The notes: generated from the letters alone by a model not told the origin. Shown: positions 6,564 through 30,397, counted from the first letter of the stretch. The stretch: 43,333 nt of DNA from a virus (IMGVR_UViG_3300047510_002406:1-43333); one strand, 5' to 3'. Numbers and translations are program-made.

Positions 6564-8861
6564 ATGAGTTTTACGCTTGCAGCAGGATTAAGGGCAAATA
6601 AGCCGCAAAGAAATGTTGGCGTGATTAGCGCAGGATATTATCATGGCGCAGCTATACAAAGAAACGGTAGGGTATGGACATGGGGAGTTTCTGGGGCTGG
6701 ACTTGGAATTGGTACTAATACAACAAATATTCCAGAAATTCTTGCGCCCGTGCGGATTATTGGAAGTACAGCAACATTTTGTAAAATTGCTTCAGGGGGA
6801 GCTAATATTATCGCATTAGATAAAAATGGAAGAGCTTGGACATGGGGAAGTAATTTATACGGACAACTTGGAGATAATACGAATATTGATAAATGTAGTC
6901 CAGTGTCAGTAATTGGGACAGCTAAAACATTTTGTGAAATTTCGGCTGGCAGTGGATATTTTCTCGCTATTGATAAAAACGGAAGAGCTTGGGCCTGGGG
7001 GGTAAATATCAGCGGACAACTAGGAGACAATACAATTGTTTGTAAATTAACGCCAATTAGTGTCCTTGGTGCTGTAAAAACGTTTTGTAAGATATCTGCT
7101 GGACCGAACGGAGACTATTCCACGGCCATAGATAAAAATGGATTGATTTGGGGATGGGGAAATAATTATTTTGGACAACTTGGAAACAATGCCGGATTTA
7201 ATTCAGTATGTACTCCTGTCTCTGTAGCTGGCGCACTAAAAACATTCTGTCAAATAGCGGCAGGAGCATACCACACTGCCGCGATTGACAAAAATGGCAA
7301 AGCGTGGGGCTGGGGGGCTGGAGGATATGGTCAAAACGGGAATAATACAAATGCAATAGTTTATACTCCAGTAAGTGTTGTCGGCGCATCAAAAACATTT
7401 TGTAAAATATCGGTGGGATTTTCACATACTCTTGCATTAGATAAAAATGGAAGAGCTTGGGCGTGGGGAAGAAATGTAACAGGCGAGTTGGGAGATGGTT
7501 CTTTAATATCGCGGTTTACTCCAGTAAGTGTTGCAGGCGTAATAAAAACATTTTGTGAAATAAGCGCCGGTATTATTAGTAATTTTATTGGACGCTCGCT
7601 GGCAATAGATAAAAATGGACGGGCTTGGGGTTGGGGATATAATTATAGGGGGATATTAGGGATCAACAGCGTTCAAAGATTTACGACACCAGCTAGTATC
7701 TGCGGAGCTAAAAAAACTTTTTGTCAAATAGCTCTTGGAGCTTTTCCCATTAATCCAGATGGAGGAGGATGGGGACTAGCTATAGATAAAAATGGATTGG
7801 TTTGGGGATGGGGTTTAAACCAAAGTGGTCAACTTGGACAAAATATTCCTCCAGATTTTTGCCGTAGTGCCAGAGATGGAGTTGTAACTCCTATCAGTAT
7901 AGTTGGCGCATTAAAAACATTTTGTAAAATATCAGTAGGAAACAATTACTCAATGGCGTTGGACAAAAATGGCATGGCATGGGGCTGGGGAACGAATAGT
8001 ATCGGTCAGATTGGAGATAACACTTCAGTAAGTAAGCTTACGCCAGTATCTGTTGCGGGGGCAGTCAAAACATTTTGCAAAATTAGCGCAAGTGTAGAAG
8101 CTGGTCGCTCTGGAAGAATAAATGCAGCGCATACTTTAGCAATAGATAAAAATGGTCGAGCGTGGGCTTGGGGGGCTAATGTTTGGGGAAGACTGGGAGA
8201 TGGCACATTAACCAATAGATTAACTCCAGTCAGTGTTAGTGGTGCGGTTAAAACATTTTGCGAAATTGGTGCGGGAGGTGCCTTTAGCGTTTCTATTGAT
8301 AAATATGGTCGCGCATGGGGATGGGGATATAATTATTACGGACAAATAGGAGATAATTCTAATGCATCTGCAATAACACCAGTGTCTGTAGCTGGTGCAG
8401 TTAAGACTTTCTGTAAAATATTTGCTGGAGCGTCGCACTGCCATGCTATTGATAAAAATGGTCAAGCTTGGAGTTGGGGATATAATAATTTTGGAGAGCT
8501 TGGAGACAATAGTACAGTTAGTAAACTTACTCCAGTGTCCGTTGCTGGCGCTATTAAAACATTCTGTGAAATATCTAGTTCAAGACAGCATTCTGTTGCG
8601 ATCGACAAAAATGGTAAAGTTTGGTCGTGGGGTAGAAATGCTGTTGGTGCGCTTGGAGATGGAACATTTGTTGATAAATTGACTCCAGTAAGCCTTGCTG
8701 GAACAAATAAAACTTTTTGTAAAATAGAGGCTGATTGGGGATTTTCCATGGGAATAGATAAATATGGTCAGGTATGGGGATGGGGAGCGGGCGAAAATCA
8801 TAGACTCGGTAATAATTTGAATTTTTGCGTGACAACTCCAGTAAGAATTTGCAATATTTGA
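6564..8861 (+). CDS. RCC1-repeat beta-propeller protein (14 repeats)
   Basis: A 765-residue protein made almost entirely of RCC1-type repeats of about 51-53 residues, each with A(I/L)DKNGRAW-WG, then G-LGDN, then TPVSV-GA-KTFCKISAG. I count 14 AxDKNG/W-WG units, which is enough for two seven-bladed propellers. Only about 20 residues precede the first repeat. A KTFC-type cysteine recurs in nearly every repeat, which is not typical of eukaryotic RCC1. Such propellers generally mediate protein or glycan contacts; here a receptor-binding or virion-decoration role is inferred from its place at the end of the fibre cluster. A second 14-repeat set is fused to a tail-tube-like domain at 27137. No signal peptide or membrane segment. 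Confidence 0.85.
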   Translation: MSFTLAAGLRANKPQRNVGVISAGYYHGAAIQRNGRVWTWGVSGAGLGIGTNTTNIPEILAPVRIIGSTATFCKIASGGANIIALDKNGRAWTWGSNLYGQLGDNTNIDKCSPVSVIGTAKTFCEISAGSGYFLAIDKNGRAWAWGVNISGQLGDNTIVCKLTPISVLGAVKTFCKISAGPNGDYSTAIDKNGLIWGWGNNYFGQLGNNAGFNSVCTPVSVAGALKTFCQIAAGAYHTAAIDKNGKAWGWGAGGYGQNGNNTNAIVYTPVSVVGASKTFCKISVGFSHTLALDKNGRAWAWGRNVTGELGDGSLISRFTPVSVAGVIKTFCEISAGIISNFIGRSLAIDKNGRAWGWGYNYRGILGINSVQRFTTPASICGAKKTFCQIALGAFPINPDGGGWGLAIDKNGLVWGWGLNQSGQLGQNIPPDFCRSARDGVVTPISIVGALKTFCKISVGNNYSMALDKNGMAWGWGTNSIGQIGDNTSVSKLTPVSVAGAVKTFCKISASVEAGRSGRINAAHTLAIDKNGRAWAWGANVWGRLGDGTLTNRLTPVSVSGAVKTFCEIGAGGAFSVSIDKYGRAWGWGYNYYGQIGDNSNASAITPVSVAGAVKTFCKIFAGASHCHAIDKNGQAWSWGYNNFGELGDNSTVSKLTPVSVAGAIKTFCEISSSRQHSVAIDKNGKVWSWGRNAVGALGDGTFVDKLTPVSLAGTNKTFCKIEADWGFSMGIDKYGQVWGWGAGENHRLGNNLNFCVTTPVRICNI

Positions 8862-14931: not shown

Positions 14932-15228
14932 ATGACAGGAAAGGAATATCTTAGCGATAGGGTTAAGGCAAACACCTCTGATTTATTCAAGAGGATGCTT
15001 GCTATTTTAGAAGACGTTAAGCATGAGCATGATAGGCAGTTCGAAATGCTACTCGCTTCTTCCCCAGAATCTTTTAAGCCTGTAGTAAAACAAGCGAATT
15101 ATCTCGATGAGGGTAAAATGGCGCTTTACCGCAAGCGCATTTTAGACATGGGCAATGAATCAATCAGAAAAACTGCGTCTGAAATTGATTTTGTCAGAAT
15201 TGAATTTCATCACACCTTTAAACAATGA
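14932..15228 (+). CDS. Hypothetical helical protein, start of tape-measure operon
   Basis: A 98-residue, mostly helical charged protein (MTGKEYLSDRVKANTSDLFKR...) with no recognised domain. It overlaps the next gene by four bases (ATGA) and heads the operon with the tail chaperones and tape measure. A role in tail assembly is inferred from position only. It has an AAGG-type weak ribosome site just upstream (GCAAAAGGTT), one of the few genes here with any purine signal. Confidence 0.65.
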   Translation: MTGKEYLSDRVKANTSDLFKRMLAILEDVKHEHDRQFEMLLASSPESFKPVVKQANYLDEGKMALYRKRILDMGNESIRKTASEIDFVRIEFHHTFKQ

Positions 15229-15962
15229 AAGAACTATTTAGCTTCAATATTAAAGTTAACAAAGAAGTTGAGAAGACCGAGACAAAAGAGGAGAACGGCA
15301 AGACTATCTCTGTCACTCAAAAGGTAAAAGAAGATGTTCCTGTAAAGATCATCATCAAGAGTCCCTCAAGAAAGAATATTGAAGATGCCGATATGCAGTT
15401 AAGCATCGAAATGTCGAACTGTATTAAAAAAGGTATTCTGACAAAAGGAATGCTTCTCAAGAAATATTCTGACTCTGGCGGTTTTATTCTGGAGGAAGAC
15501 CGAAAAGAACTCGCAAGGCTGAATGCTTTTGTTATTTCAAAGCAAGACGAGTATTCAAAAATGATTTCAAGATCAGAGAGGGATAAAGTAGCTGAAGATG
15601 AAATTATTGAAACGATTATGTCCGCTAAGAGAGCAATGCTGGAATATGAATCTGCTTACGCCAATCTTTTCGAAAATACTGCGGATTCGATTGCAGTAAG
15701 CAACGTAATTCGCTGGTTTTGCTTGCATATGGCTCACAAGCAAGAGGGCGATGGTCCAATTCAGCCCTTATTCGAAGGAGAAACTACCGAGGAAAAGCAG
15801 GCTTCTCTTCACAAGATGGATGAGGCCGAAGAGCCTATTTATTCAAAAGCTTATAGAAAACTCGCCACCTTTGTTTCATTCTGGTATTACAGCAAGAACG
15901 CAAAGAAGGAAGATTTTGAAAAGCTAAATTCCGACATTGAAAACGGAACATTTACTACATAA
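15225..15962 (+). CDS. Putative tail assembly chaperone, gpG-like
   Basis: A 245-residue protein. The N-terminal 70 residues are beta-rich and include a charged hairpin with Lys-Glu-Thr repeats; the rest is helical (DADMQLSIEMSNCIKKGILTK, then RSERDKVAEDEIIETIM). It sits two genes before the tape measure, where siphoviruses encode the paired chaperones that coat the tape measure during tail assembly. The following frame begins inside this gene and has no ATG start, which is the usual sign of a frameshifted G-GT product. Sequence similarity to lambda gpG cannot be judged by eye; the assignment is positional. Confidence 0.6.
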   Translation: MKELFSFNIKVNKEVEKTETKEENGKTISVTQKVKEDVPVKIIIKSPSRKNIEDADMQLSIEMSNCIKKGILTKGMLLKKYSDSGGFILEEDRKELARLNAFVISKQDEYSKMISRSERDKVAEDEIIETIMSAKRAMLEYESAYANLFENTADSIAVSNVIRWFCLHMAHKQEGDGPIQPLFEGETTEEKQASLHKMDEAEEPIYSKAYRKLATFVSFWYYSKNAKKEDFEKLNSDIENGTFTT

Positions 15963-16929
15963 TCAGCTTTTTATAAGATTTAACGAAATAATAAAAGGAT
16001 TCTCTGAAAGAAGGTTAGAGAAAGAAACTATATATATTAAACACCTCTCCAATGATGAGAGGTGTTTTTTGTATTCAAAGTATCAAGAGTTCTTTGATTA
16101 CGCTGGTAAGTTAGGGCTCCCTTCAGAAAAGGATGCTTTGGAAAAGGCTATCGATGATGATTTTTGGAGCGAAAAAAACGAGAAAGAGATAAAAACAAGT
16201 GAAGACTTCATCGAAAGAATGAAGCTCACTAAAAAAAATCTTTTCAAGCAAAGAGATATAGAGGTTATAGAAAAAGATTTAAAAGCCGAAGAGGAAAAAT
16301 TGAGAAATAAGCTTGAAGAAAGAAGAGAAATTTTAGGCAAAACAAAGGAGGATTATGCAGCTAATAGATCGAACGATTATGTACTCTACTTAAGTCTTTA
16401 CAAAAATAGAAGTTTTACAGAAAAATATTTTGATTTGGAATATTTTGAGGAAATGTCTCACTCTGAGTTAGGCAAATACATACTTTTTTATAACGAATTT
16501 TATAAAGAATTCGATGATCTCTGCACTCAAAGAATAGCGTTAGCTGATTTTTATAAGCCCTATTATATTGTTTTGGATAGTCCAAATGATTTTTTGGGAA
16601 AGCCGCTTTGTGAATTTACTGAGCTTCAAACAAGAGTTTTAATTTACGGAAAAGTTTTTAAGAATATTTTTGAAAATAATGAAAATATTCCAGAAAAGAT
16701 AATGAACGATCCTGAAGAATTATTGAAATATGTCGATAAAACAAAAGCTGAAGAAAAGTTTAACAAAAGCAGAAAAAAGTCTTCAGCCAACTCTAGCGCA
16801 GAAATGGTATTCGGGGCATCAAAAGATGAACTTTCAAAGTCAAAAGACACTAAAATGGTCAATGACGTAATGAAAGAAAAGAAAAATTTAACTATGGAAG
16901 AGTTAATGAAATTACATGGAGAGATGTAA
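15937..16929 (+). CDS. Putative tail chaperone extension, gpT-like (frameshifted or TTG start)
   Basis: A 330-residue open frame, +1 relative to the preceding gene, overlapping it by 26 bases. The first possible start is TTG at 15937; the nearest in-frame ATG is about 95 codons inside. No purine-rich ribosome site lies at the right distance, and the frame is open only from 15928. This suggests that it is reached by a +1 or -2 ribosomal shift from the upstream gene, as for tail chaperone pairs, though no canonical slippery site is evident in 15928-15962. The protein is highly charged with a coiled-coil region near residues 95-150 and a Lys/Ser-rich tail. The tape measure starts 32 bases later. 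A terminator-like hairpin lies inside its first 50 codons. Confidence 0.65.
   Translation: MKTEHLLHNQLFIRFNEIIKGFSERRLEKETIYIKHLSNDERCFLYSKYQEFFDYAGKLGLPSEKDALEKAIDDDFWSEKNEKEIKTSEDFIERMKLTKKNLFKQRDIEVIEKDLKAEEEKLRNKLEERREILGKTKEDYAANRSNDYVLYLSLYKNRSFTEKYFDLEYFEEMSHSELGKYILFYNEFYKEFDDLCTQRIALADFYKPYYIVLDSPNDFLGKPLCEFTELQTRVLIYGKVFKNIFENNENIPEKIMNDPEELLKYVDKTKAEEKFNKSRKKSSANSSAEMVFGASKDELSKSKDTKMVNDVMKEKKNLTMEELMKLHGEM
16039..16070 (+). terminator. Terminator-like hairpin inside coding sequence
   Basis: A perfect 11-bp stem AAACACCTCTC / GAGAGGTGTTT with a 7-base loop CAATGAT, running into a six-T tract. It has every feature of an intrinsic terminator, yet it lies in the second chaperone frame, 77 bases past the stop of the first. 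It might lower transcription into the extension frame and tape measure, or act only as RNA structure. Confidence 0.5.
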
Positions 16930-16961: not shown

Positions 16962-19900
16962 ATGGCAAAAGGAATCACAGTCCCGGTCACTCAAACTGGA
17001 TTATCGCAATCCATTCAAAATGCGGTTAAGCAAGTTGGCGGAATTAGCGTTCCGGTTGACATTGATTCAAGATCATTCAAAAACCTCTCTCAGCCGCTAG
17101 GAAGAATCACTGGTTTGGCGACTGAGTTCGAAAAGTCAATTGCGGCATCGAATGCCCGTGTTATCGCATTCGGCGCTTCAGTTGGAATTATAAATGGTAT
17201 TCAAGGTGCTTTTGCTGAACTACTTAGAACGGGTATAGAGGTTCAGAAGATATTGGCGGATATTGCCGCTATCTCAGGTCAATCTGGGGCAGAACTTTCG
17301 AAGTTTGGCGATTCTATTTTTGATGTCGCAAAAAATACTAGTCAAAGTTTTAAAGTAGCCGCTCAAGCTGCTCTTGAATTCTCTCGTCAAGGCTTGAGTA
17401 CTGATGAGACGATCAGAAGAACAAACGATGCTCTTACTCTTGTAAGATTCACTACATTAAATGCCGCAGAGGCAGTTGATGTTTTAACTGCGGCAACAAA
17501 CTCATTTTCAGACACGGGAATTACAACTTCTGAAATTTTGAATAAGCTTGTTGCGGTTGACACTAAATTCGCGGTTTCGGCGGAAGACCTTGCCAACGGT
17601 TTGGCTCGCGCAGGCTCGATTGCTCAAGAGGTTGGCGTTTCATTCGATGAGCTTAATGCGGCTATTACAATTACTCAAGAGAGAACTGCTCGCGGTGGTG
17701 CAGTAATCGGCAACGCATTAAAAACAATTTTCACAAGACTGAGAAGTGATGAAACAGTCAATGCGTTAAGATCTATTGGCGTAGAGTCTTTAAATGCCCA
17801 AGGGGGATTAAAAGGAGCTATTCCTCTTCTTCAAGAAGTAGCCACAAAGATTGAAAATCTTTCTGGAGGCGAAAGAGTTCAAATTTTAGAGGCAATTGCT
17901 AGCAAGTACAATATCAATATTCTTTCTGCTCTTTTAAATGACTTGAACGCCGCTAACGGTAAGTTTGCCGAGGTTGTTCAAATTTCAGGATCAGCGCAAA
18001 ATCAAGCTTACGAAAGACAAATAGAATTAAATAAAACTCTTGCTGCTCAGATAAATCTTACGACTGTTTCTGTTACTCAGTTATTCAATAAGCTTGCTGA
18101 AATTGGCGTGACAGAGAGCTTAACAAGCATACTGAAATTCGTTAATGATTTATTGGATGGCTTCAATAAGCTTTTAGACTCGGAAACAACTGGCAGCAAC
18201 ATCGCAAAAGGTCTGATCAAAGGCATTTCTGATGTTTTCTTTACTGTCGGTTTGCCAATTATTGGAGCTATCTTTATAAAGCTAACAAAAGATATTGCCC
18301 AATTCGGCGTTGAGTCTTTAAAAACAATTTTAGGCATTAACCAGCAAGTTAGAGAGCGCCAAGCTCTTGAGCAAGCTGTAGTAAATACTTTGATTAAGGA
18401 TAGAGATGTAATGGCGTCAATTCTTGCCTTGAGTGGAGATAGAGCAAAGCAAGAAGAGTATTTGCTAAATGTTTATAATCGCCAAATTTCTGCTCTTGAG
18501 AGAGTTCAGTCTATAGCAACTTCTGTTGCTCCTGCTTTAGTGCAGGGCGGTCTTTCTGCTACTAGCGGAACTGTACAACGCAGAGCAGCAGACGGATATC
18601 TCCCAGCGCAAGAAGCTGCGGATGTAAAGCGAGGCGTTGGTGGTGCGGACAAGAATGCAAAGGTGGTTAAGATCCCTAATTTCTCTTTTGGTGGTGGCAA
18701 GAAGGGTACAATGTACGCAAATACCAGCGAATATATTGTTCCTAATTATAATGGTGGCGATGGGACTGCTATCTTCAACAAAGATATGGTCAGTAAATAC
18801 GGAAAGCCAGAAAATGCTAAAAAGATAAATGCGGCAACAGGGTATATTCCAAATTATATAAAAACCCAGCCTAAAAATATTCAAGCTATTCGTCAAGGTA
18901 AAAAATTTGAACAAAGTTTAAATTTAAAACTATTTGGAGAAGCGTCATATGCAGCTAATGCTGTTTTAGATTTTCCAAAGCCAGAAGGTTTTGGTGCAGA
19001 CTCCGAAGTAAAAAAAGAACTTGGAATAAATCCACAATCAGAGTACGGAGATGCAAAAAGAACCCAAAGCAGAAAAAGCGAAAAGAGTTTATTAGATAAA
19101 TACCTGAGAACTCCAGAAGGAAGCGCTGAGTTTTTAAATGCAAAAGAAACCGCCAGAGGATTTATAAATTTAAATCCAAAAGGTTTGTCGATGCTATTTT
19201 TAGAACAAGGTCAAGACGCAAAAGAAACCGCTTATCTTGGAACAAAGGAGTCTATTTTATCAGAAAAAACAAAAGATTTGATTAAAACAAAATTTGGAGA
19301 TAAAAAAGCTAGCAAAACTATTGCTATGCCTTATATTGCCGATAAAATAAATAAAAGTGAACTGAGTGCTAAAAAAGCTTCGACTGGTTATATTCCAAAT
19401 TTTCAGCAGCAGGCGGTTGGCGAAAAGCAGCTTACCGCAAAAGAAAAGGAATTAAAAACAAAGGCAGAGAAAGTAATAAATAATAGGGTTGGCAATACTT
19501 TTGGTACTGCGGCAATGCTGGTCAAGGATCAAGATGATGAGCAAAAAGTCAGAACAGATAAAACTTATCCTTGGGGTTTTGAGCCAAAAGAGCCAGAAAA
19601 TAAAATATTTGGAAGAGTAAAGTTCCCAGTTTATGGCTTAAAGGATAGTGGATTGCAGCAAGCAAAACTTGGCGCTGTTCCAAAGATCAAAGAGCCATTA
19701 GATAAAATAGCTTTAGATTTCGGCACTTCTGTTTCTTCAGATCTGGCTGGAAGACAGGTCAGCCAAGCTGAGTATCAACAATCATACAAAAAATCTTTTG
19801 GTGCTGCTGGAGCTTTCGGAGGTGTTGTCGGAGGCATCTTTGAATCTGCCGCAAGAGTAGCTTTTAATTTTGAAAGCGACAAAGTTAATACTTTAGACGT

Positions 19901-22900
19901 TCCAAATATTCCTGATCCAATGCGATTGGCTTTCGGAATAACTGGAGGAGAAAGAAGCGCCGATCTTAAAGGTTCTGTTTCTGATGGCGTTTTAAGAGGG
20001 TTTGCAAGTCAGGCAGTAAAAAATAATTTAGTTAAAGAAGAGGTCAGGGAAATGACTAATGCGCCAAAGAAAGTTGCCGCAAAAGGATTTGTTCCAAATT
20101 ATGCCGAAAAACTTACAGAAATGTATGATTGGGATGGCACTATCATTCCAAAAATCTCAGGAAAGCCCGAAGAATATATTCAGTCGATCCAGAAACTTGA
20201 AAAGAAGGATCTTCTTCCCGTGGGCAAAGAGCTTGCCGCTTCAAAAGAAAAGTTTGATATTGCAACTGCTAGACCAATTGCATTTAAAGATCCAATTAAA
20301 AATGCAGCCCAAAATCTCGGGCTCAATGTTGAAAAAGTATTTCCTCTTGGATCAATGTTTGAAAATCGCAGGGCTCAAGGCAAAAGAGGTCCGAGAAAAC
20401 TTTACACTCCAGAAAGAAAAGCATTATTCGCGGAGAAGACTGGTAGATCTATCGTTGATGATGAAGAAGAGAACTTGATGGCTCTTGGATCTCGCGGCAT
20501 AAATGCAAATTTAAGAAATCGCGGCGCTTTTGGGTTTATTCCAAATTTTGCTTCTCAAAACGCAATAGACGCAATGAGAAGAATCGTCTCAGACCCTGCC
20601 GCTCCACAAGGAGAAAAAGATGCAGCGTCGTTAAAACTTTCTCAACTTACAAAAGTAAGTTCATTAAATAATCCAAGAGTTGCGGCGCAAAAGACCACAA
20701 AAATAAAGCTTCCAATAACTCAAGAGGACAAGGACTATCTTAATCAGAACAAGGAAAAAATTGTCGCAGGAATGGGCAGAAGTTTTGGAATGTTATTTAA
20801 TTTAGATGCTTTGGAGATGGGGGATTTAGGCTACGTAAAACGTTTGGATCCAATAGTTGCAAAAAAATTGTCGGAAATAGCGCAAAAACAAGGTGGCAGA
20901 GATTCTATCAGATCTTTGGTTGATTTTGGATCTGCGGCGAAAGGGTATATTCCAAACTTTGCTGATCCACTGAAAGAGGCTGTTAATAGAGAAATCGCCG
21001 CTGGAATTAATCCCTCTCAGGTGCGCGTAACAAGAGATGATCGTTTAATGACAACCCGCAATCCAGAGGGGCTTGCGGTAATAAATACCAGAGATGAGCC
21101 AAACGGCAAAGTTCCTTCTAACAGAATAAACGAAAAGGATGGCAAAATGGCAGCAAAGGGCTTTGTGCCAAACTTTGCTATTGGTACGCCTAAAGGTGGA
21201 TATAAAGCCGCAGAATCTTCAACTGGTGAAGCTGTAGGCATACCAAAAGATTTGCAGTCAAGTCTGATAGGATCAGCAAATAGACTTCTAAAACAATTTG
21301 AAGAAGGTGCAATTGACCAATCAAAGCTAAATGTAGCCATAAAAGATTTAGCGGCCAAGAATAATTTAACTGCTGAATCGACAAATAAATTGCAAACTCA
21401 AGTCGATGATTCAATAAAAAGATTTGAAAAGAATAAGGCTAAATCTGGCGGTGGAGGGGTTGGGCCAGACCAAGGCGGCGCTAAAGATGGAAGGTTTTCA
21501 TTAGATAAAACATTTTACGCTTTTTCTGGTCTAACTCTTGCCGCAAATGCGCTTGAGCAAGCTTTTGGAAAATCAGAAAGTGGGCTAGCAAAATTTGCAG
21601 TTGGTCTTGCAAGTGCTACTCAAGCAGCATCTCAAGGAGCGCTTCTGGGTCAATCGTTTGGAGATTTGACAAAAGGCTTGGTTGGAAAAGGCGGCGTTTT
21701 GGGGGCTTTAGGAAAAATTGGTAGCTTTGCTGGCCCTGCTGGTGCGGCTATAGGCTTGGGAGTTGGAATTTTTTCAGAAATTAATGATGTTATCAATGCT
21801 CCTCAAAGAAAAAGGGAAACAGATGCTGAAAAAAGAATAAATGAATTATCTTCTACTGCTTTAGATAAAGCAGATGAATTAAAAATATTTGAGGAGGAAA
21901 TAAGTAAAATACAAGCGCGGCAAAGAGAATTACAGCCTGGTGGGGAGGCCAGAGCACAAACTGCGGCCAATGTAGCTCAACAAAATCCTTTTGCCACTAT
22001 GGGATTGGCAATGTCTATGCCAGAGCAGGACAAAAAGGATGATGAAGAAATTTTAAAACTTAGAGTTGATTTAGCGGCTACCGAGAAAAAAAGAAAAGAA
22101 ATTTTAGCAGAAATTGCGGTAAATAAGAAAAAAGAAGAAAGGGCAGTTCAAAGAGAGGCGCAAGAATTAATTAAAAGAGTTGCTTTAACTACACAAATAA
22201 CAGCCTTAAATGAAGCTAATGCCAGAGGGGAAAATGCGGCCTTGGAACTAAGGGCAAAAAGGCAGTCCGATTTAATTAAAAATTCTATTTTTCTTACAGA
22301 CACCCAAAAACAAAGCCTACAAGACGCTGAAACTTTAACTCAGTTAGACGAAAAAAGAGATGATTTAAAAAAATCAATTCTTTTAAGCACTGTCAAAGAG
22401 TTGGGTCAAGGCAAGCTTACTACTGTTGAGGAGCAAAAATTAAATATCTTAAGAAAAAGGCTAGAAGCAGGAGAAAAAATAACCGATATTGAAAAAGAGT
22501 TAAATGCATTAGGCATTCAGGGAAATAGTGAAGCTGGAATTAAAATTACGAATGCTCTTTCTGAGTTCAGAATAAAAGATGGTCAATTGGTTGTAGAAAA
22601 AAATATCACAAGAGAAAGACAAGCCGCAAACAAAGAGGCAAAAACAGCTTTAGAGATAGAAAAAATAAGATTGAGTTATTTAGAACAGAGTTTTAAAGCG
22701 CAAAAAGAAATTGAAGATATTATGATTGCTGGAGATAGAGCTATACAAGAAGCGCAGTTAAGAACTCCTGTAGCTCAACTAGAAAACCAAATTGCAACTC
22801 AGCCATTCGCTACAAGAGGGCAGGAGGCTCAACTGGCAAAATTGAGAGAAGAATTTGCCAAATTATCCGCTCAAAGAAAAATCGATAATGATTTTGCGGA

Positions 22901-24704
22901 CATTCAAAGAAGAAATTTTGACGAATTAAAAAATTCGATTATTTCTAATGTTGAAGCCGCAAATGAGCTTAACGGAGAGTTCGTAAAAGGTTTAGTTTCT
23001 GACGCTAGAAAAGCACAAAGCCTTCAAGATTTAATTAATGTAATATCTGAATTAGAAGAGGCAGAAAAAACTTTGTCTGAAACGGAATCTAATTCAATAG
23101 CTAGGGAGCAAGCTACAAAGACTTTAAATGCAGCTACAGAGGCATTAAGAAAGAATAATTTAAATGTTGCTCAGGCAAAGGTTTTACTTGAAGAATATAA
23201 TAAACAACAGCAAAGGCAGATTGAATTTCGAACAAAGCTAGCTCAGTTAAGAGACGAATCTCCAGCCAAAGCTGGAATGTTCGCAGCATTTAACGAAATT
23301 GAACAAGAGTCTTATAACTTCCAAGAGACATTTGCCAAAAATACCACTCTTGCATTTAGAGACGGAATGAGAGACGCTTTGTCAGCAGCAATCTCTCAAA
23401 CTGATGATCTTGGTGCTGCTTTGCAAGATGTTGCAATGAACTTTTTGAAGACTATGCAGAATGCGTTCTTGCAGCAGGCTTCTAATCAGGCAATGATTGG
23501 TTTGCAGAATGCTTTCCCAACTGTATTTCCAAAAGGTCCGGCTCAAGGAGCTACTGGTGGTTTTGTTAGTGGCGGAAAAATTATAAAAGGGTACGCAACT
23601 GGCGGATTGGTTACTGGGGGTAGCGGATACAAAGACGATGTGCCAGCGATGCTTAGTCAAGGCGAGTATGTTATTCGCAAATCTTCTGTGGAAAAATATG
23701 GCGCCGCAAATCTTGAAAAAATGAACTCTGGGGGAATGCCCAGATTTGCTGCTGGCGGTGATATTTTCCTTCCTGGTGTTCGCGGACAAACCGCAATTTC
23801 TGGCTACAAGGATCTAACTAGATTCGCAAATCAAACTACAACTAGTGGCTCAACAGATGTAATGAAAGGCAGTGGATCTTCTGCGTTCATTAATCTTGAA
23901 GACCAGAGCATGAGACTTTCAAGGTTCGCCCTTCTTAACGAAGATGATATAGTTAATCAAGAAATTAAATCGGCGCAACAGCAAGGGCTAGATCTAATAA
24001 AACAAAGAGAAGCTTATAGAACGCAGCAAAGAAAAGCGTTCCAAAAGCAATTGAAGCAAACAGTGATTTCAGCAGCATTGAATGCTGGACTTGGAGCATT
24101 AAGCGCTCCTAGCCCAACAGGTACATACTCTGGAAAAGGAATTGGTTCCGAATTATATTCTCAGAGCAAAATGGCTCCTGGGACTTCTCCATTAAGTACG
24201 GGACCATCATTTTTTAGTTCATCTGGACCAGCTTCTTTTGGTGGATATTCCACTCTAACGCCAAGAGCACCATTTAAGGCTTATGGTGGGTCGATTTCCA
24301 AATATGCAGATGGCGGTCCAGTTGATAAAATTCCCGCTCTTCTTATGGACGGCGAATATGTAATGAGCAACAAAGCCGTAAAGAAGCACGGAAAGCAGTT
24401 TTTTGATTCATTGAATCAAGGTCGCGCTCCAAGATTTGCCAACGGCGGCGAAGTTGGAGGCGGCGGTGAAATGCTGGGCGAAAAGTTTGATAATCTTTCC
24501 AGCAAGCTAGAAACGAGGGGAGCACCAGAAGTTAATATCACCGTCAACGTAACAAGCTCTGGATCTTCAGAAACTAAAGCTCAAGGTGAATCAGCCCAAG
24601 GCGGCATAGACTATAAGAAAATGTCAGAAAAGATTAAAGCTGTAGTTCTCGAAACCATTAACGAGGAAAAGCGCTTGGGCGGATCGCTGAGATCAGGTAG
24701 ATAA
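16962..24704 (+). CDS. Tail tape measure protein with embedded enzyme-like domains
   Basis: A 2580-residue protein. Residues about 60-350 match the TP901-type tape-measure core (ALEFSRQGLS, AVDVLTAATNSF, ITQERTARGGAVIGNALKTIF). Residues 545-1405 are unusual: six GY/GF-(I/V)-PN-(F/Y) motifs start at 627, 809, 1042, 1191, 1328 and 1400. Between them are two PD-(D/E)XK-like segments (Glu650, Asp670, Asp697-x-Lys699; and Glu961, Asp979, Asp1001-x-Lys1003) and one HAD-like segment with Asp1056 and Asp1058. A Gly/Ala-rich hydrophobic stretch near 1545-1605 could be a membrane segment. Residues 1610-2110 are coiled coil. The C-terminal third has two copies of a GG-V...VPA-L--GEYV(I/M)...KYG/KHG...PRFA-GG unit; a degenerate third lies near 590. 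At about 0.15 nm per residue the full helix would suggest a tail near 390 nm, but the inserted globular segments make this an upper bound. The next gene overlaps by one base (TAATG). Confidence 0.92.
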   Translation: MAKGITVPVTQTGLSQSIQNAVKQVGGISVPVDIDSRSFKNLSQPLGRITGLATEFEKSIAASNARVIAFGASVGIINGIQGAFAELLRTGIEVQKILADIAAISGQSGAELSKFGDSIFDVAKNTSQSFKVAAQAALEFSRQGLSTDETIRRTNDALTLVRFTTLNAAEAVDVLTAATNSFSDTGITTSEILNKLVAVDTKFAVSAEDLANGLARAGSIAQEVGVSFDELNAAITITQERTARGGAVIGNALKTIFTRLRSDETVNALRSIGVESLNAQGGLKGAIPLLQEVATKIENLSGGERVQILEAIASKYNINILSALLNDLNAANGKFAEVVQISGSAQNQAYERQIELNKTLAAQINLTTVSVTQLFNKLAEIGVTESLTSILKFVNDLLDGFNKLLDSETTGSNIAKGLIKGISDVFFTVGLPIIGAIFIKLTKDIAQFGVESLKTILGINQQVRERQALEQAVVNTLIKDRDVMASILALSGDRAKQEEYLLNVYNRQISALERVQSIATSVAPALVQGGLSATSGTVQRRAADGYLPAQEAADVKRGVGGADKNAKVVKIPNFSFGGGKKGTMYANTSEYIVPNYNGGDGTAIFNKDMVSKYGKPENAKKINAATGYIPNYIKTQPKNIQAIRQGKKFEQSLNLKLFGEASYAANAVLDFPKPEGFGADSEVKKELGINPQSEYGDAKRTQSRKSEKSLLDKYLRTPEGSAEFLNAKETARGFINLNPKGLSMLFLEQGQDAKETAYLGTKESILSEKTKDLIKTKFGDKKASKTIAMPYIADKINKSELSAKKASTGYIPNFQQQAVGEKQLTAKEKELKTKAEKVINNRVGNTFGTAAMLVKDQDDEQKVRTDKTYPWGFEPKEPENKIFGRVKFPVYGLKDSGLQQAKLGAVPKIKEPLDKIALDFGTSVSSDLAGRQVSQAEYQQSYKKSFGAAGAFGGVVGGIFESAARVAFNFESDKVNTLDVPNIPDPMRLAFGITGGERSADLKGSVSDGVLRGFASQAVKNNLVKEEVREMTNAPKKVAAKGFVPNYAEKLTEMYDWDGTIIPKISGKPEEYIQSIQKLEKKDLLPVGKELAASKEKFDIATARPIAFKDPIKNAAQNLGLNVEKVFPLGSMFENRRAQGKRGPRKLYTPERKALFAEKTGRSIVDDEEENLMALGSRGINANLRNRGAFGFIPNFASQNAIDAMRRIVSDPAAPQGEKDAASLKLSQLTKVSSLNNPRVAAQKTTKIKLPITQEDKDYLNQNKEKIVAGMGRSFGMLFNLDALEMGDLGYVKRLDPIVAKKLSEIAQKQGGRDSIRSLVDFGSAAKGYIPNFADPLKEAVNREIAAGINPSQVRVTRDDRLMTTRNPEGLAVINTRDEPNGKVPSNRINEKDGKMAAKGFVPNFAIGTPKGGYKAAESSTGEAVGIPKDLQSSLIGSANRLLKQFEEGAIDQSKLNVAIKDLAAKNNLTAESTNKLQTQVDDSIKRFEKNKAKSGGGGVGPDQGGAKDGRFSLDKTFYAFSGLTLAANALEQAFGKSESGLAKFAVGLASATQAASQGALLGQSFGDLTKGLVGKGGVLGALGKIGSFAGPAGAAIGLGVGIFSEINDVINAPQRKRETDAEKRINELSSTALDKADELKIFEEEISKIQARQRELQPGGEARAQTAANVAQQNPFATMGLAMSMPEQDKKDDEEILKLRVDLAATEKKRKEILAEIAVNKKKEERAVQREAQELIKRVALTTQITALNEANARGENAALELRAKRQSDLIKNSIFLTDTQKQSLQDAETLTQLDEKRDDLKKSILLSTVKELGQGKLTTVEEQKLNILRKRLEAGEKITDIEKELNALGIQGNSEAGIKITNALSEFRIKDGQLVVEKNITRERQAANKEAKTALEIEKIRLSYLEQSFKAQKEIEDIMIAGDRAIQEAQLRTPVAQLENQIATQPFATRGQEAQLAKLREEFAKLSAQRKIDNDFADIQRRNFDELKNSIISNVEAANELNGEFVKGLVSDARKAQSLQDLINVISELEEAEKTLSETESNSIAREQATKTLNAATEALRKNNLNVAQAKVLLEEYNKQQQRQIEFRTKLAQLRDESPAKAGMFAAFNEIEQESYNFQETFAKNTTLAFRDGMRDALSAAISQTDDLGAALQDVAMNFLKTMQNAFLQQASNQAMIGLQNAFPTVFPKGPAQGATGGFVSGGKIIKGYATGGLVTGGSGYKDDVPAMLSQGEYVIRKSSVEKYGAANLEKMNSGGMPRFAAGGDIFLPGVRGQTAISGYKDLTRFANQTTTSGSTDVMKGSGSSAFINLEDQSMRLSRFALLNEDDIVNQEIKSAQQQGLDLIKQREAYRTQQRKAFQKQLKQTVISAALNAGLGALSAPSPTGTYSGKGIGSELYSQSKMAPGTSPLSTGPSFFSSSGPASFGGYSTLTPRAPFKAYGGSISKYADGGPVDKIPALLMDGEYVMSNKAVKKHGKQFFDSLNQGRAPRFANGGEVGGGGEMLGEKFDNLSSKLETRGAPEVNITVNVTSSGSSETKAQGESAQGGIDYKKMSEKIKAVVLETINEEKRLGGSLRSGR
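18864..19241 (+). other. PD-(D/E)XK-like segment 1 within tape measure
   Basis: Residues about 635-760. A helix with GKKFEQSL (Glu650) is followed by strand NAVLDFPK (Asp670) and strand EYGDAKRT (Asp697, Lys699). The E...D...DxK order and spacing follow the PD-(D/E)XK nuclease core. It is bounded by GYIPNY at 627 and GYIPNF at 809. Nuclease activity is inferred, not shown. Confidence 0.5.
19794..20066 (+). other. PD-(D/E)XK-like segment 2 within tape measure
   Basis: Residues about 945-1035. GGIFESAARVAF (Glu961), TLDVPNI (Asp979) and RSADLKGS (Asp1001, Lys1003) repeat the same E...D...DxK pattern as segment 1, with a similar LD-x-P strand. It ends just before GFVPNY at 1042. The two segments differ enough to be distant relatives, not a recent duplication. 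Confidence 0.5.
20109..20516 (+). other. HAD-phosphatase-like segment within tape measure
   Basis: Residues about 1050-1185. EMYDWDGTIIP gives motif I (Asp1056, Asp1058). IATARPIAF gives motif II (Thr1102). Lysines in RKLYTPERKALFAEK could serve as motif III, and SIVDDEEENL gives the acidic motif IV (Asp1166, Asp1167). All four HAD motifs are in order at family spacing. It is bounded by GFVPNY at 1042 and GFIPNF at 1191. Confidence 0.6.
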
Positions 24705-27136: not shown

Positions 27137-30100
27137 ATGGGCAGACCAATTTCATACGAAATGCAGATGATGTTTGTGGGCTCTGTTGGAGCTTTTGAAG
27201 AGGCCATGAACACAGGCAGCGGAATTAGCCGCCTTGATTTTATTCAAGGCTATGATTTTTCTTTTAATATAGACAGACCTGCGCTGAAACAAATTGGCTC
27301 CGATTCTTTTGCAACAAGACAAACTCAGTTCGCTCCAGATGTTAATTTTAACATTCAATATCTTTTGAACGATGGCTGGAATGAGAAATATATTGGATTG
27401 GATATACCACAAGGAAGCTTGTCTAACCCATTTGATACAATTCTTTCTTCAACTGGAGATCGAAACTTTTATGTAAGCGTGGCAAAAAATGATGGCAAAG
27501 ACCAGAATTTGCAAAGCGAAATTGTTAATAGTAATATTTTATCGATAGGCAATGCTTATATCAGCAGTTATGAAATTAGCGTAGCTGTAAATCAGCTAGC
27601 AACAGTCTCCTGCTCTTTTGTCGGCTCAAATGCCAGTGTTCAAGATTATGAAACTTCTAAGTATTTGCCATCTGTAAATAGTGCCGTTACTGGTCAAAAC
27701 GCCGAAGATGCTAATAAAAAATTTGCTCTTAAATTCTTAAATAATAATAGAAATCAAGCCTATATTCCAAAAGCTACTGAAACTTTTGCAGGAGGTTGTC
27801 CGTATAGCAAATGTAAAATAACTCCAGATTTCCAATCTGATGGAGTGAAGTCTCCAATTACTTTTGGGTTTTTTGACGCTGTTGCAAATAACTTTCAAAG
27901 TATGCAGTTTGCTGTTCAGTTTGAACGGAAATCTCTTTATGGGTTTGGGAACAATCATCCATACGGTAGAAAAATTCAAAGGCCAATAGTTGCAACTTTA
28001 GCATTGTCGGCGCTGATTGATGATTTTCAGGCCGAAAATTTAAGCAAAGTTTTTCATAACGAAGGTTGGTCAAAAAGTTCTATCTTGATAGAATTCTTTA
28101 ATTTGTCTGATGTTAAGAAGTTTACAATATCTTTAAATAATTTAACTTTAGAGTCTTATTCGCTAGGAGCAAGGATTGGGGATAGGGTTTTGGTAGACAC
28201 TAATTGGACAGTTGAAGTTAATAATGGGGGTGGGTCAAATGTAGAGATGGGCGGCTCTTATAGATATGGGACTCTTGATGTCACGCTTGTTAACGAGTCT
28301 TTTTCCATGCCTCAATTTCTTTCACAAATTGTTAGTGTTGCCGGATTGCCTTATGCGATAACTAAAGATGGCAATTTATTTTCTTGGGGTTTTTTCGCAC
28401 AAACGCCTGCTTCAGACGCTGGAATAATTCCAAGAAAAGTTTTTAATAGAAGTGGCGTATCGTTGCTTGCAGATAGCTCTGGTTATTCTAGAATGTTTTT
28501 AGATAAAAACGGAAAAGCTTGGGCATGGGGAGATAATTACTATGGGTCGATTGGAGACGGAACAGTAATTTCTAGAAGTTCTCCTGTTTCAGTAATTGGA
28601 AATAAAACATTTTGTCAAATAGCGACCAATTCATTTACTTCTTTTGGGGTTGATAAAAATGGAACAGCTTGGGGATGGGGAAGGACGCCTTTTGTTGGAA
28701 TAAACGTTACTACTGAAGGTTGTACGATTTCTCCAGTTCAAATTCTTAATTATGCGCCTTATGTTCCTTATACAGTTTGTTTTTGTAAAATATCTGTGGG
28801 CGATAGGTTTGCTTTGTGCATAGATCAAAATGGTAAAGCTTGGGGCTGGGGGGCGAATGACAATGCTCAATTAGGGATTGGTAGCATTAATGCTGGATGG
28901 GCACTCTTAAAACCAGTTTGTGGCAACAAAACGTTTTGTAAAATATCCGCTGGGTATGATCACTCGCTAGCCATTGATAAAAATGGAAAAGCGTGGGCTT
29001 GGGGCAGGGGAGACATAGGATCAGTTGGTGGTGGTGTATTAAAATGCACTCCAGTTGCAGTTTCTGGAAATATAACATTTTGTCGCATTAGCGGTGGATT
29101 TTTGAATTCTGGAGGTATTGATAAAAATGGAGAAGCTTGGCAGTGGGGAGGCGCAGTATCTCAGTATCCACTTAAAGTATCTGGTAGTAAAAAAACATTT
29201 TGTCAAATAAAAGCCGCAGGGTCTGTCTATTATGCTATAGATAACAATAATAGAGCTTGGGGCTGGGGAGATCCAAGAAATGGAAAGTTTGGCAATCCTA
29301 TATTCGCAAATCGTAGAACGCCAACGGCCATAGGCGGCTCAACTAAAACTTTTTGTAAAGTATCAGCGCTTGTAGCTATTGATAAAAAAGGAAAAGCTTG
29401 GGCGTGGGGATATAATGAATACGGGTCGGTTGGGGATGGTTCTACGTCAATAAGATGTACGCCAGTTTCAGTTTACGGAAATAAAACATTTTGTGAAATA
29501 GCGAGCCTAGCAAACAGTGTATTAGCAATAGATAAAAATGGTAAAGCTTGGGGCTGGGGAAATAATTCACTTGGACAGTTGGGAGATGGGACATCAATTA
29601 ATAACTTGACCCCAGTTTCAGTTTATGGAAACAGAACATTTTGCAAAATAGCTAGTGGAGGCTCTACATCTATCGCTATTGACAAAAATGGTAAAGCTTG
29701 GGGCTGGGGGTTTAATTACTATGGGCAGGCTGGTATTGGTCAAGGAATTGAAGTTTCCTTAACTCCAATGTCAATAGTTGGAAATAAAACTTTTTGTCAA
29801 ATATATAATCTAAACATTGGGACTTTTGGAATTGATAAAAATGGCAAGGCGTGGGGTTGGGGATATAATTATGGAGGAGAGCTTGGAGTAGGAGCAGGAT
29901 CTTATTCGAATAATTATTCTCCATTAGAAGTACTGGGAGGCAAAACTTTTTGTCAAATATTTTATGGAGGATCAAGCTCTATCGGTCTTGATAAAAATGG
30001 AAAAGTTTGGTCATGGGGTCCATATCCTACAAATATAGGTACTAATGAATATGGAGATCCTTTAGAGTTTGTTGGTTCTCCAATGGCTGTTTGCACAAAC

Positions 30101-30397
30101 AAAACATTTTGTAAAATAGCTTGGGACGGAGGTTCAGTTTTAGCCACTGATAAAAACGGCAGAACTTGGGCTTGGGGATCAGATTATTATAATACTTTGT
30201 CAATTGGCGGCGGTTATTCCGCAACTCCAAAATCAATTAATGGAGATAAAACATTCAATTACATAAATATGAACGGTGCCACTTCTGCTGGCATAGATAT
30301 AAAAGGAAGATTATGGACATGGGGAGATTTTTATAGAGCCCAATTAGGACAAGGAATCCCAATGACAGATACTCCTGTTAGGATATATAATTTCTAA
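27137..30397 (+). CDS. Tail-tube-like domain fused to 14 RCC1 repeats
   Basis: A 1086-residue protein. Residues 1-385 resemble the tail tube: YDFSFNIDRPALKQIGSDSFA, NIQYLLNDGWNEKYIG, NFYVSVAKNDGKD and GNAYISSYEISVAVNQLATVS track the gene at 11779 stretch by stretch, and a second barrel follows. Residues about 395-1086 hold 14 RCC1 units (A-DKNGKAW-WG, KTFC-I), the same number and type as the free RCC1 protein at 6564. The domain order suggests that the N-terminal part inserts into the tail tip ring, displaying a double propeller outward, probably for receptor or cell-surface contact. Copies number and orientation cannot be seen from sequence. Confidence 0.82.
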   Translation: MGRPISYEMQMMFVGSVGAFEEAMNTGSGISRLDFIQGYDFSFNIDRPALKQIGSDSFATRQTQFAPDVNFNIQYLLNDGWNEKYIGLDIPQGSLSNPFDTILSSTGDRNFYVSVAKNDGKDQNLQSEIVNSNILSIGNAYISSYEISVAVNQLATVSCSFVGSNASVQDYETSKYLPSVNSAVTGQNAEDANKKFALKFLNNNRNQAYIPKATETFAGGCPYSKCKITPDFQSDGVKSPITFGFFDAVANNFQSMQFAVQFERKSLYGFGNNHPYGRKIQRPIVATLALSALIDDFQAENLSKVFHNEGWSKSSILIEFFNLSDVKKFTISLNNLTLESYSLGARIGDRVLVDTNWTVEVNNGGGSNVEMGGSYRYGTLDVTLVNESFSMPQFLSQIVSVAGLPYAITKDGNLFSWGFFAQTPASDAGIIPRKVFNRSGVSLLADSSGYSRMFLDKNGKAWAWGDNYYGSIGDGTVISRSSPVSVIGNKTFCQIATNSFTSFGVDKNGTAWGWGRTPFVGINVTTEGCTISPVQILNYAPYVPYTVCFCKISVGDRFALCIDQNGKAWGWGANDNAQLGIGSINAGWALLKPVCGNKTFCKISAGYDHSLAIDKNGKAWAWGRGDIGSVGGGVLKCTPVAVSGNITFCRISGGFLNSGGIDKNGEAWQWGGAVSQYPLKVSGSKKTFCQIKAAGSVYYAIDNNNRAWGWGDPRNGKFGNPIFANRRTPTAIGGSTKTFCKVSALVAIDKKGKAWAWGYNEYGSVGDGSTSIRCTPVSVYGNKTFCEIASLANSVLAIDKNGKAWGWGNNSLGQLGDGTSINNLTPVSVYGNRTFCKIASGGSTSIAIDKNGKAWGWGFNYYGQAGIGQGIEVSLTPMSIVGNKTFCQIYNLNIGTFGIDKNGKAWGWGYNYGGELGVGAGSYSNNYSPLEVLGGKTFCQIFYGGSSSIGLDKNGKVWSWGPYPTNIGTNEYGDPLEFVGSPMAVCTNKTFCKIAWDGGSVLATDKNGRTWAWGSDYYNTLSIGGGYSATPKSINGDKTFNYINMNGATSAGIDIKGRLWTWGDFYRAQLGQGIPMTDTPVRIYNF
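28319..30394 (+). other. RCC1 repeat region (two predicted seven-bladed propellers)
   Basis: Fourteen W-WG units of about 49 residues. Most have the form IDKNGKAWGWG with a following KTFC. Units 1, 7 and 14 are the most diverged (KDGNLFSWG, NNNRAWGWG, IKGRLWTWG), consistent with propeller edges at 1-7 and 8-14. Confidence 0.75.

Follow-up and report, generated by a model that had tools for sequence, protein, structure and literature searches.

The tail tape measure protein encoded by the viral DNA IMGVR_UViG_3300047510_002406:1-43333 (the window, that is, the whole analysed stretch of 43,333 nucleotides) contains an array of discrete modules, which are separated by copies of a short fixed linker and follow a constant N-terminal part. 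Two of these modules carry a set of invariant, catalytic-type residues, the modules are under purifying selection, and whole modules are swapped, gained, lost, and reordered between relatives as cassettes. On balance, we favour the interpretation that the protein is both a tail ruler and a cargo carrier, in other words a tail-delivered effector array resembling the polyvalent proteins of mobile elements.

The open reading frame (ORF) in question spans 16962–24704 on the + strand and encodes 2580 residues. Its product contains the PhageMin_Tail domain characteristic of the tape measure class (Pfam PF10145, E = 1.1e-24) and gave many matches to the PHROG tape-measure families. The motif G[YF][IV]PN[FY] is repeated at residues 627, 809, 1042, 1191, 1328, and 1400, and each interval between the repeats corresponds to one module. 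The layout of the protein is as follows, with the basis of the assignments in brackets:

16962–24704, +, tape measure protein, 2580 residues (PF10145, PHROG families, 21 IMG/VR relatives)
16962–18821, +, constant N-terminal tape-measure part, residues 1–620 (68–98% identity across relatives)
18654–18839, +, pre-hinge, residues 565–626, ANTSEYIVPN..AIFN..M..G.P..A..INAA, just 5′ of linker 1 (conserved in the alignment; 159 IMG/VR relatives)
18840–18857, +, linker 1, GYIPNY, residues 627–632 (linker consensus)
18858–19373, +, module m1 (family F5), residues 633–804, nuclease-like; codons of E650, D670, D697, and K699 start at 18909, 18969, 19050, and 19056 (alignment, hhalign to F0, AlphaFold 2)
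19386–19403, +, linker 2, GYIPNF, residues 809–814
19404–20072, +, module m2 (family F0), residues 815–1037, nuclease-like, with the core at its C-terminal end; codons of E961, D979, D1001, and K1003 start at 19842, 19896, 19962, and 19968 (alignments, invariant catalytic columns, AlphaFold 2)
20085–20102, +, linker 3, GFVPNY, residues 1042–1047
20103–20519, +, module m3, residues 1048–1186, HAD-phosphatase-like by motif (DWDGT, ATARP, ERK, VDDEEEN)
20532–20549, +, linker 4, GFIPNF, residues 1191–1196
20550–20930, +, module m4, residues 1197–1323, fourth in the array of the window and first in that of the relative L003 (module families)
20943–20960, +, linker 5, GYIPNF, residues 1328–1333
20961–21146, +, module m5, residues 1334–1395, a short conserved element (NPxGLAVxNTRDEP), commonly the last in the array (module families)
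21159–21176, +, linker 6, GFVPNF, residues 1400–1405, closing the array
21177–24701, +, post-cargo tape-measure region with two C-terminal GEYV..K.G..LN.G..P.FA.GG elements (direct reading)

When the N-terminal part was used as a query, 21 relatives were found in IMG/VR, in which the first linker occupies the same place while the modules behind it differ. The viral collection was also scanned for the linker motif, where the matches listed represent a lower bound, and for the conserved hinge, which yielded 159 IMG/VR relatives, of which 80 were kept. Among the matches listed, both scans revealed the same array plan in many further contigs. Of the 76 complete tape measures with linkers, 75 have the first one within residues 607–654. 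These proteins contain nine linkers at most and one to seven modules per array, the length of the cargo ranging from 210 to 1504 residues. The linker consensus (n = 451) is A(0.57)-A(0.73)-x-G-[YF]-[IV]-P-N-F(0.91)-A(0.79), that is, AAxG[YF][IV]PNFA, where the invariance of G, P, and N arises by construction, since the search pattern specified these residues. Of the 76 complete proteins, 75 contain one or more nuclease-like domains, always between linkers. The 76 proteins had been sampled by the N-terminal part, F5, the HAD module, the linker, or the hinge but never by F0, so for most of them the sampling itself does not account for how widespread the nuclease-like domain is. In the set of 21 relatives, the module families comprise F0 and F5 (nuclease-like), F1 (P-loop, GPAGTGKTT), F2 (HAD motifs), and F3, F4, F6, and F7. 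In one contig (L001:4106-5440), two F0 modules stand in tandem with a slightly degenerate linker, GYIPSF, between them.

The exchange of modules is apparent from their order, which is F5-F0-F2-F3-F4 in the window, F5-F1-F0-F2-F3-F6-F4 in L002, F0-F5-F2-F3-F4 in L010, and F3-F1-F0 in L003; F5 and F0 are therefore in swapped order in the window and L010. The proteins of L002 and the window are 96–98% identical up to residue 1330, yet L002 contains one extra whole cassette within this part and a second one directly after it, both with boundaries in linkers. The synonymous divergence (dS) between these two is 0.37 in the N-terminal part and m1 and only 0.02 in m2 and m3. A similar mosaic was seen between L010 and L011, where the nucleotide identity is about 65% in the N-terminal part and about 50% in the post-cargo region, while it reaches 96–98% in several cargo blocks. 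The ratio of nonsynonymous to synonymous divergence (dN/dS) was 0.03 for residues 1–620 compared with L002 and 0.09–0.44 in the modules, indicating that selection maintains the modules as proteins. A preliminary description of this DNA, made from its sequence, had noticed neither the linkers nor the HAD-like module nor the cassette exchange.

That description had proposed two PD-(D/E)XK nuclease-like segments within the tape measure, and all eight residues it named (E650, D670, D697-x-K699, and E961, D979, D1001-x-K1003) were found at their positions. Its opinion that two such matches would hardly occur by chance was borne out: the strict pattern G..[FYIL]E/LD.P/[DE].K is present twice in the protein, while none of 5000 composition shuffles contained it twice (mean 0.003 per shuffle). 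A looser pattern, however, appeared twice in 3.7% of the shuffles, and as the pattern was composed after seeing the hits, conservation is the better test. Profiles built from F5 only and F0 only aligned over the core with high significance (hhalign 96.7%, E = 3.6e-10) and placed the E, D, and DxK of both in matching columns, which indicates that m1 and m2 are homologous; an earlier comparison with 4 F5 and 11 F0 sequences had been weak (6.1%, E = 0.006), and the larger set made it significant. Iterated profile searches started from F0 alone and from F5 alone converged on the same 93–94 modules. In 78 non-redundant modules (<80% identity), the G that precedes the F-E pair is conserved in 78, the Glu in 74 (D in 4), the middle Asp in 78, the next acidic residue is D in 50 and E in 28, and the Lys is present in 78, while a later K/Q is found in 77 of 77 modules. 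Although modules gathered by profile search favour conserved columns, no other columns come close. The invariance is limited to the G/E/D/(D/E)xK set, the domains being otherwise only 15–30% identical, and E, D, and (D/E)-x-K follow in the order characteristic of PD-(D/E)XK enzymes. The homology of the two segments together with the residue invariance ruled out two separate chance motifs. What stood of the original proposal is thus two real homologous domains, which form discrete modules of the tape measure with E/D/(D/E)-x-K in order, while the restriction-endonuclease-like fold did not.

The fold was assessed on AlphaFold models of 18867–19376 (F5) and 19470–20072 (F0) of the window, both of which were confident (predicted local distance difference test, pLDDT, 85.9 and predicted template modelling score, pTM, 0.83 for F5/m1; pLDDT 92.0 and pTM 0.85 for F0/m2). 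The Glu is located in a long helix, in line with the preliminary description, and the Asp-x-Lys in a strand; the middle Asp, which the description had placed in a strand, is instead next to a bridge of a single residue. The order of elements according to DSSP is alpha(E)-bridge(D)-alpha-beta(DxK)-alpha, with a short helix between the middle Asp and the DxK strand, and the remaining strands are N-terminal to the core in F0 and C-terminal to it in F5. The alpha-beta-beta-beta-alpha-beta core, the lack of which had been named in advance as evidence against a nuclease fold, is absent from both models, there being no consecutive strands after the first helix; in this strict form the fold assignment is not supported. 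Foldseek searches of PDB (both models) and BFVD (F0) gave no match at E ≤ 0.001, the best hits being unrelated (prob ≤ 0.08), and sequence profiles found no credible relative in PDB, Pfam, NCBIfam, PADLOC, or PHROGs. Homology to UPF0102/YraN or Mrr_cat, tried with profiles made from bacterial genomes, was not found (hhalign <1%), while the control comparison of YraN with Mrr_cat gave 90.6%; VRR_NUC sequences for a similar comparison were not present in the 99 genomes searched. The strand placement hinted at circular permutation between F0 and F5, but hhalign with duplicated profiles did not extend convincingly beyond the core and such a relationship is not claimed. A permuted PD-(D/E)XK topology is possible on the basis of the models. 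Since an invariant set is found without any fold or profile match, we consider these modules a new domain family of unproven fold, whose conserved residues resemble an active site and follow each other as in nucleases, and in which the term nuclease denotes the motif.

The other cargo modules are of diverse types. GNAT acetyltransferase domains above the Pfam cut-off were detected in two contigs (L039 and L041) and a cytidyltransferase-associated domain in a third (L115). Module m3 contains the DxDxT, T/S, K, and D motifs of the HAD superfamily, and D9, D11, T55, K106, and D119 are invariant in all seven aligned sequences down to 35% identity; no profile match of m3 to HAD families was obtained in Pfam or PDB sequences. 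The P-loop motif was found in 23 of 75 cargo regions and 3 times in the rest of the proteins, and the P-loop module produced only weak AAA-type matches at the loop. The HExxH motif, looked at with respect to the metallopeptidase processing of polyvalent proteins, occurred in 3 of the 75 cargo regions. Protein kinase-, ART-, ParB-, and metallopeptidase-like modules were seen by eye only and are not claimed.

According to the interpretation we favour, the N-terminal and post-cargo regions would perform the tape-measure work, while residues 627 to approximately 1400 would form folded modules, like beads on a string, joined by the fixed AAxGYIPNFA linker. The nuclease-like domain would be a near-obligatory member of the array, and the HAD-like, P-loop, GNAT, and other enzyme modules would be optional ones gained and lost as cassettes via recombination. 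At infection, the tape measure would exit the tail before the DNA and the modules would reach the cytoplasm, where they could act on the host as immediate-early effectors, cutting nucleic acid, with the invariant set as the putative active site, and modifying host targets before any phage gene is expressed. The outcome would be takeover of the cell or blunting of its defences. The idea of the preliminary description that effectors leave with the tail fits a modular, horizontally exchanged array. Tape measures are known to get as far as the inner membrane at injection; that of lambda, gpH, was labelled by the inner-membrane bait TurboID-ManZ, and siphovirus tape measures are contacted there by a membrane nuclease defence (PMC13190303). 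An enzyme-bearing tape measure would thus be well placed for delivery before phage transcription.

Some observations weigh against this interpretation. No isolate carrying the array was found among the INPHARED phages with eight query regions (m1–m2 of the window, the hinge, and six other cargo regions), and nuclease activity and delivery are inferred. The nuclease-like domain matches no known fold or family in the Foldseek and profile searches, and the HAD and P-loop modules were recognized by motifs. Several folded domains of 15–25 kDa in 3–6 copies are hard to fit in a tail tube, hence they would need to be unfolded or located at an end. Moreover, an accessory toxin would not usually be as nearly universal as this one module is, which could point to a structural or processing role.

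The first of these roles would mean that the modules help to build the tail, close off its tube, or attach to its tip, with the invariant residues binding metal or a partner without catalysis. Both the occurrence of the nuclease-like module within the cargo region of 75 of 76 proteins, and never elsewhere, and the lack of a matching enzyme fold agree with this. On the other hand, active sites typically show such invariance, here confined to G/E/D/(D/E)xK in very divergent domains; some of the other modules are recognizable enzymes (GNAT), and between tails that are closely related entire modules are gained, lost, and rearranged. We regard a structural array as rather unlikely. It is also unlikely that the domain is a new-fold enzyme other than a nuclease, acting for example in linker processing or nucleotide chemistry, and that its PD-(D/E)XK likeness is convergent or coincidental. 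Confident models without a Foldseek match, the missing YraN/Mrr_cat match despite a working control, and the near-universal presence, which suits a processing enzyme, all speak for it; the order and chemistry of the helix Glu, Asp, strand (D/E)xK, and helix Lys/Gln nevertheless fit the nuclease signature better, and we know of no protease or nucleotide enzyme that fits this order as well. Finally, the cargo might be delivered but aimed at rivals such as resident prophages, superinfecting phages, or defence systems. The cassette diversity and fast exchange resemble arms-race loci, and for polyvalent proteins a role against restriction and against resident elements that compete with the incoming one has been suggested (PMC5512222), but we regard this version as quite improbable.

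Outside the metagenomic viral set, the hinge scan of a collection of 84,980 genomes gave two matches only, both in contigs of metagenome-assembled genomes (MAGs; L162, Verrucomicrobiales, and L163, Flavobacteriaceae), which are probably phage contigs binned with the MAG and provide weak host hints. The nuclease-like domain was also sought in 297 cellular genomes of the phylum to which one carrier MAG belongs; only that MAG matched, and one of its two matches was on the contig with the tape-measure hinge. No description of such tape-measure arrays was found in the literature covered, which excluded most subscription journals and bioRxiv; in a jumbo-phage survey the tape measure is mentioned once, as a DNA conduit.

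Further features were observed in and around the tape measure gene. The two C-terminal elements (approximately 23640–23760, GEYVIRK..KYGAANLEKMNSGGMPRFAAGG, and 24360–24480, GEYVM..KHGKQFFDSLNQGRAPRFANGG) resemble the pre-hinge and linker 1 (approximately 18654–18860, SEYIVPN..KYGKPENAKKINAATGYIPN), thus, judging from the sequence, the linker may have originated from a common tape-measure element. The region 21460–23100 (residues approximately 1500–2050) is a second hypervariable stretch, where the nucleotide identity to L002 is 0.44–0.6 over much of its length compared with 0.85–0.95 in the flanks; it contains no linkers and resembles a helical spool. Upstream of the tape measure, two overlapping ORFs (15225–15962 and 15937–16929, the latter with a TTG start) possibly encode frameshift-linked tail assembly chaperones; no obvious classic slippery site was found at these ORFs. 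The tail-gene neighbourhood also includes two RCC1-repeat (beta-propeller) proteins at 6564–8861 and 27137–30397.

If the favoured interpretation is true, tails would serve to deliver immediate-early effector proteins, and their cargo could be listed directly from metagenomes. The linker would be a sequence handle by which to find new families of enzymes, among them the nuclease-like domain for which no match was found. More tentatively, the tape measure might act as a programmable multi-effector conveyor in a whole class of uncultured phages, where the linker defines the slots, a new-fold metal nuclease occupies one slot in practically all members, and the remaining slots take up other enzyme cassettes that move among divergent phages.

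To our knowledge, tape measures are usually viewed as rulers and DNA-channel formers with a cell-wall enzyme at most. Enzymatic tape measures, such as the peptidoglycan hydrolases in SPbeta-like YomI or in mycobacteriophages, also have catalytic domains inside the tape measure protein, but they act on the cell wall with one or two fixed domains, whereas the modules described here have motifs that point to nucleic acids, proteins, or nucleotides as targets, and they are exchanged as cassettes. The nuclease-like family shares with PD-(D/E)XK nucleases the (nearly) invariant helix Glu, Asp, (D/E)-x-K, and later helix Lys/Gln, and differs from them in its predicted topology and in the absence of a fold or profile match. 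Polymorphic toxins (Rhs, contact-dependent inhibition, and type VI secretion systems; PMC3482391) similarly join a delivery part that stays constant to interchangeable effector domains disseminated by recombination, but they carry one C-terminal toxin, while the exchange in the tape measures is internal and multi-slot, involving one to seven cassettes. The closest likeness is to the polyvalent proteins (Iyer et al., 2017, PMC5512222), in which several unrelated enzyme domains share a polypeptide that has been proposed to be injected along with the DNA. Here, too, disparate enzyme domains stand in a single protein of a mobile element, according to the module catalogue and the GNAT and nucleotidylyltransferase-related Pfam hits; GNAT and other effector types recur, as do candidate metallopeptidases. 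The word "tape" is absent from the text of that study, and the arrays differ from polyvalent proteins in that they are borne by the tail tape measure, in that copies of a short, constant linker set off the modules at a fixed position in the protein, and in that nearly every array includes a member of one new nuclease-like family.

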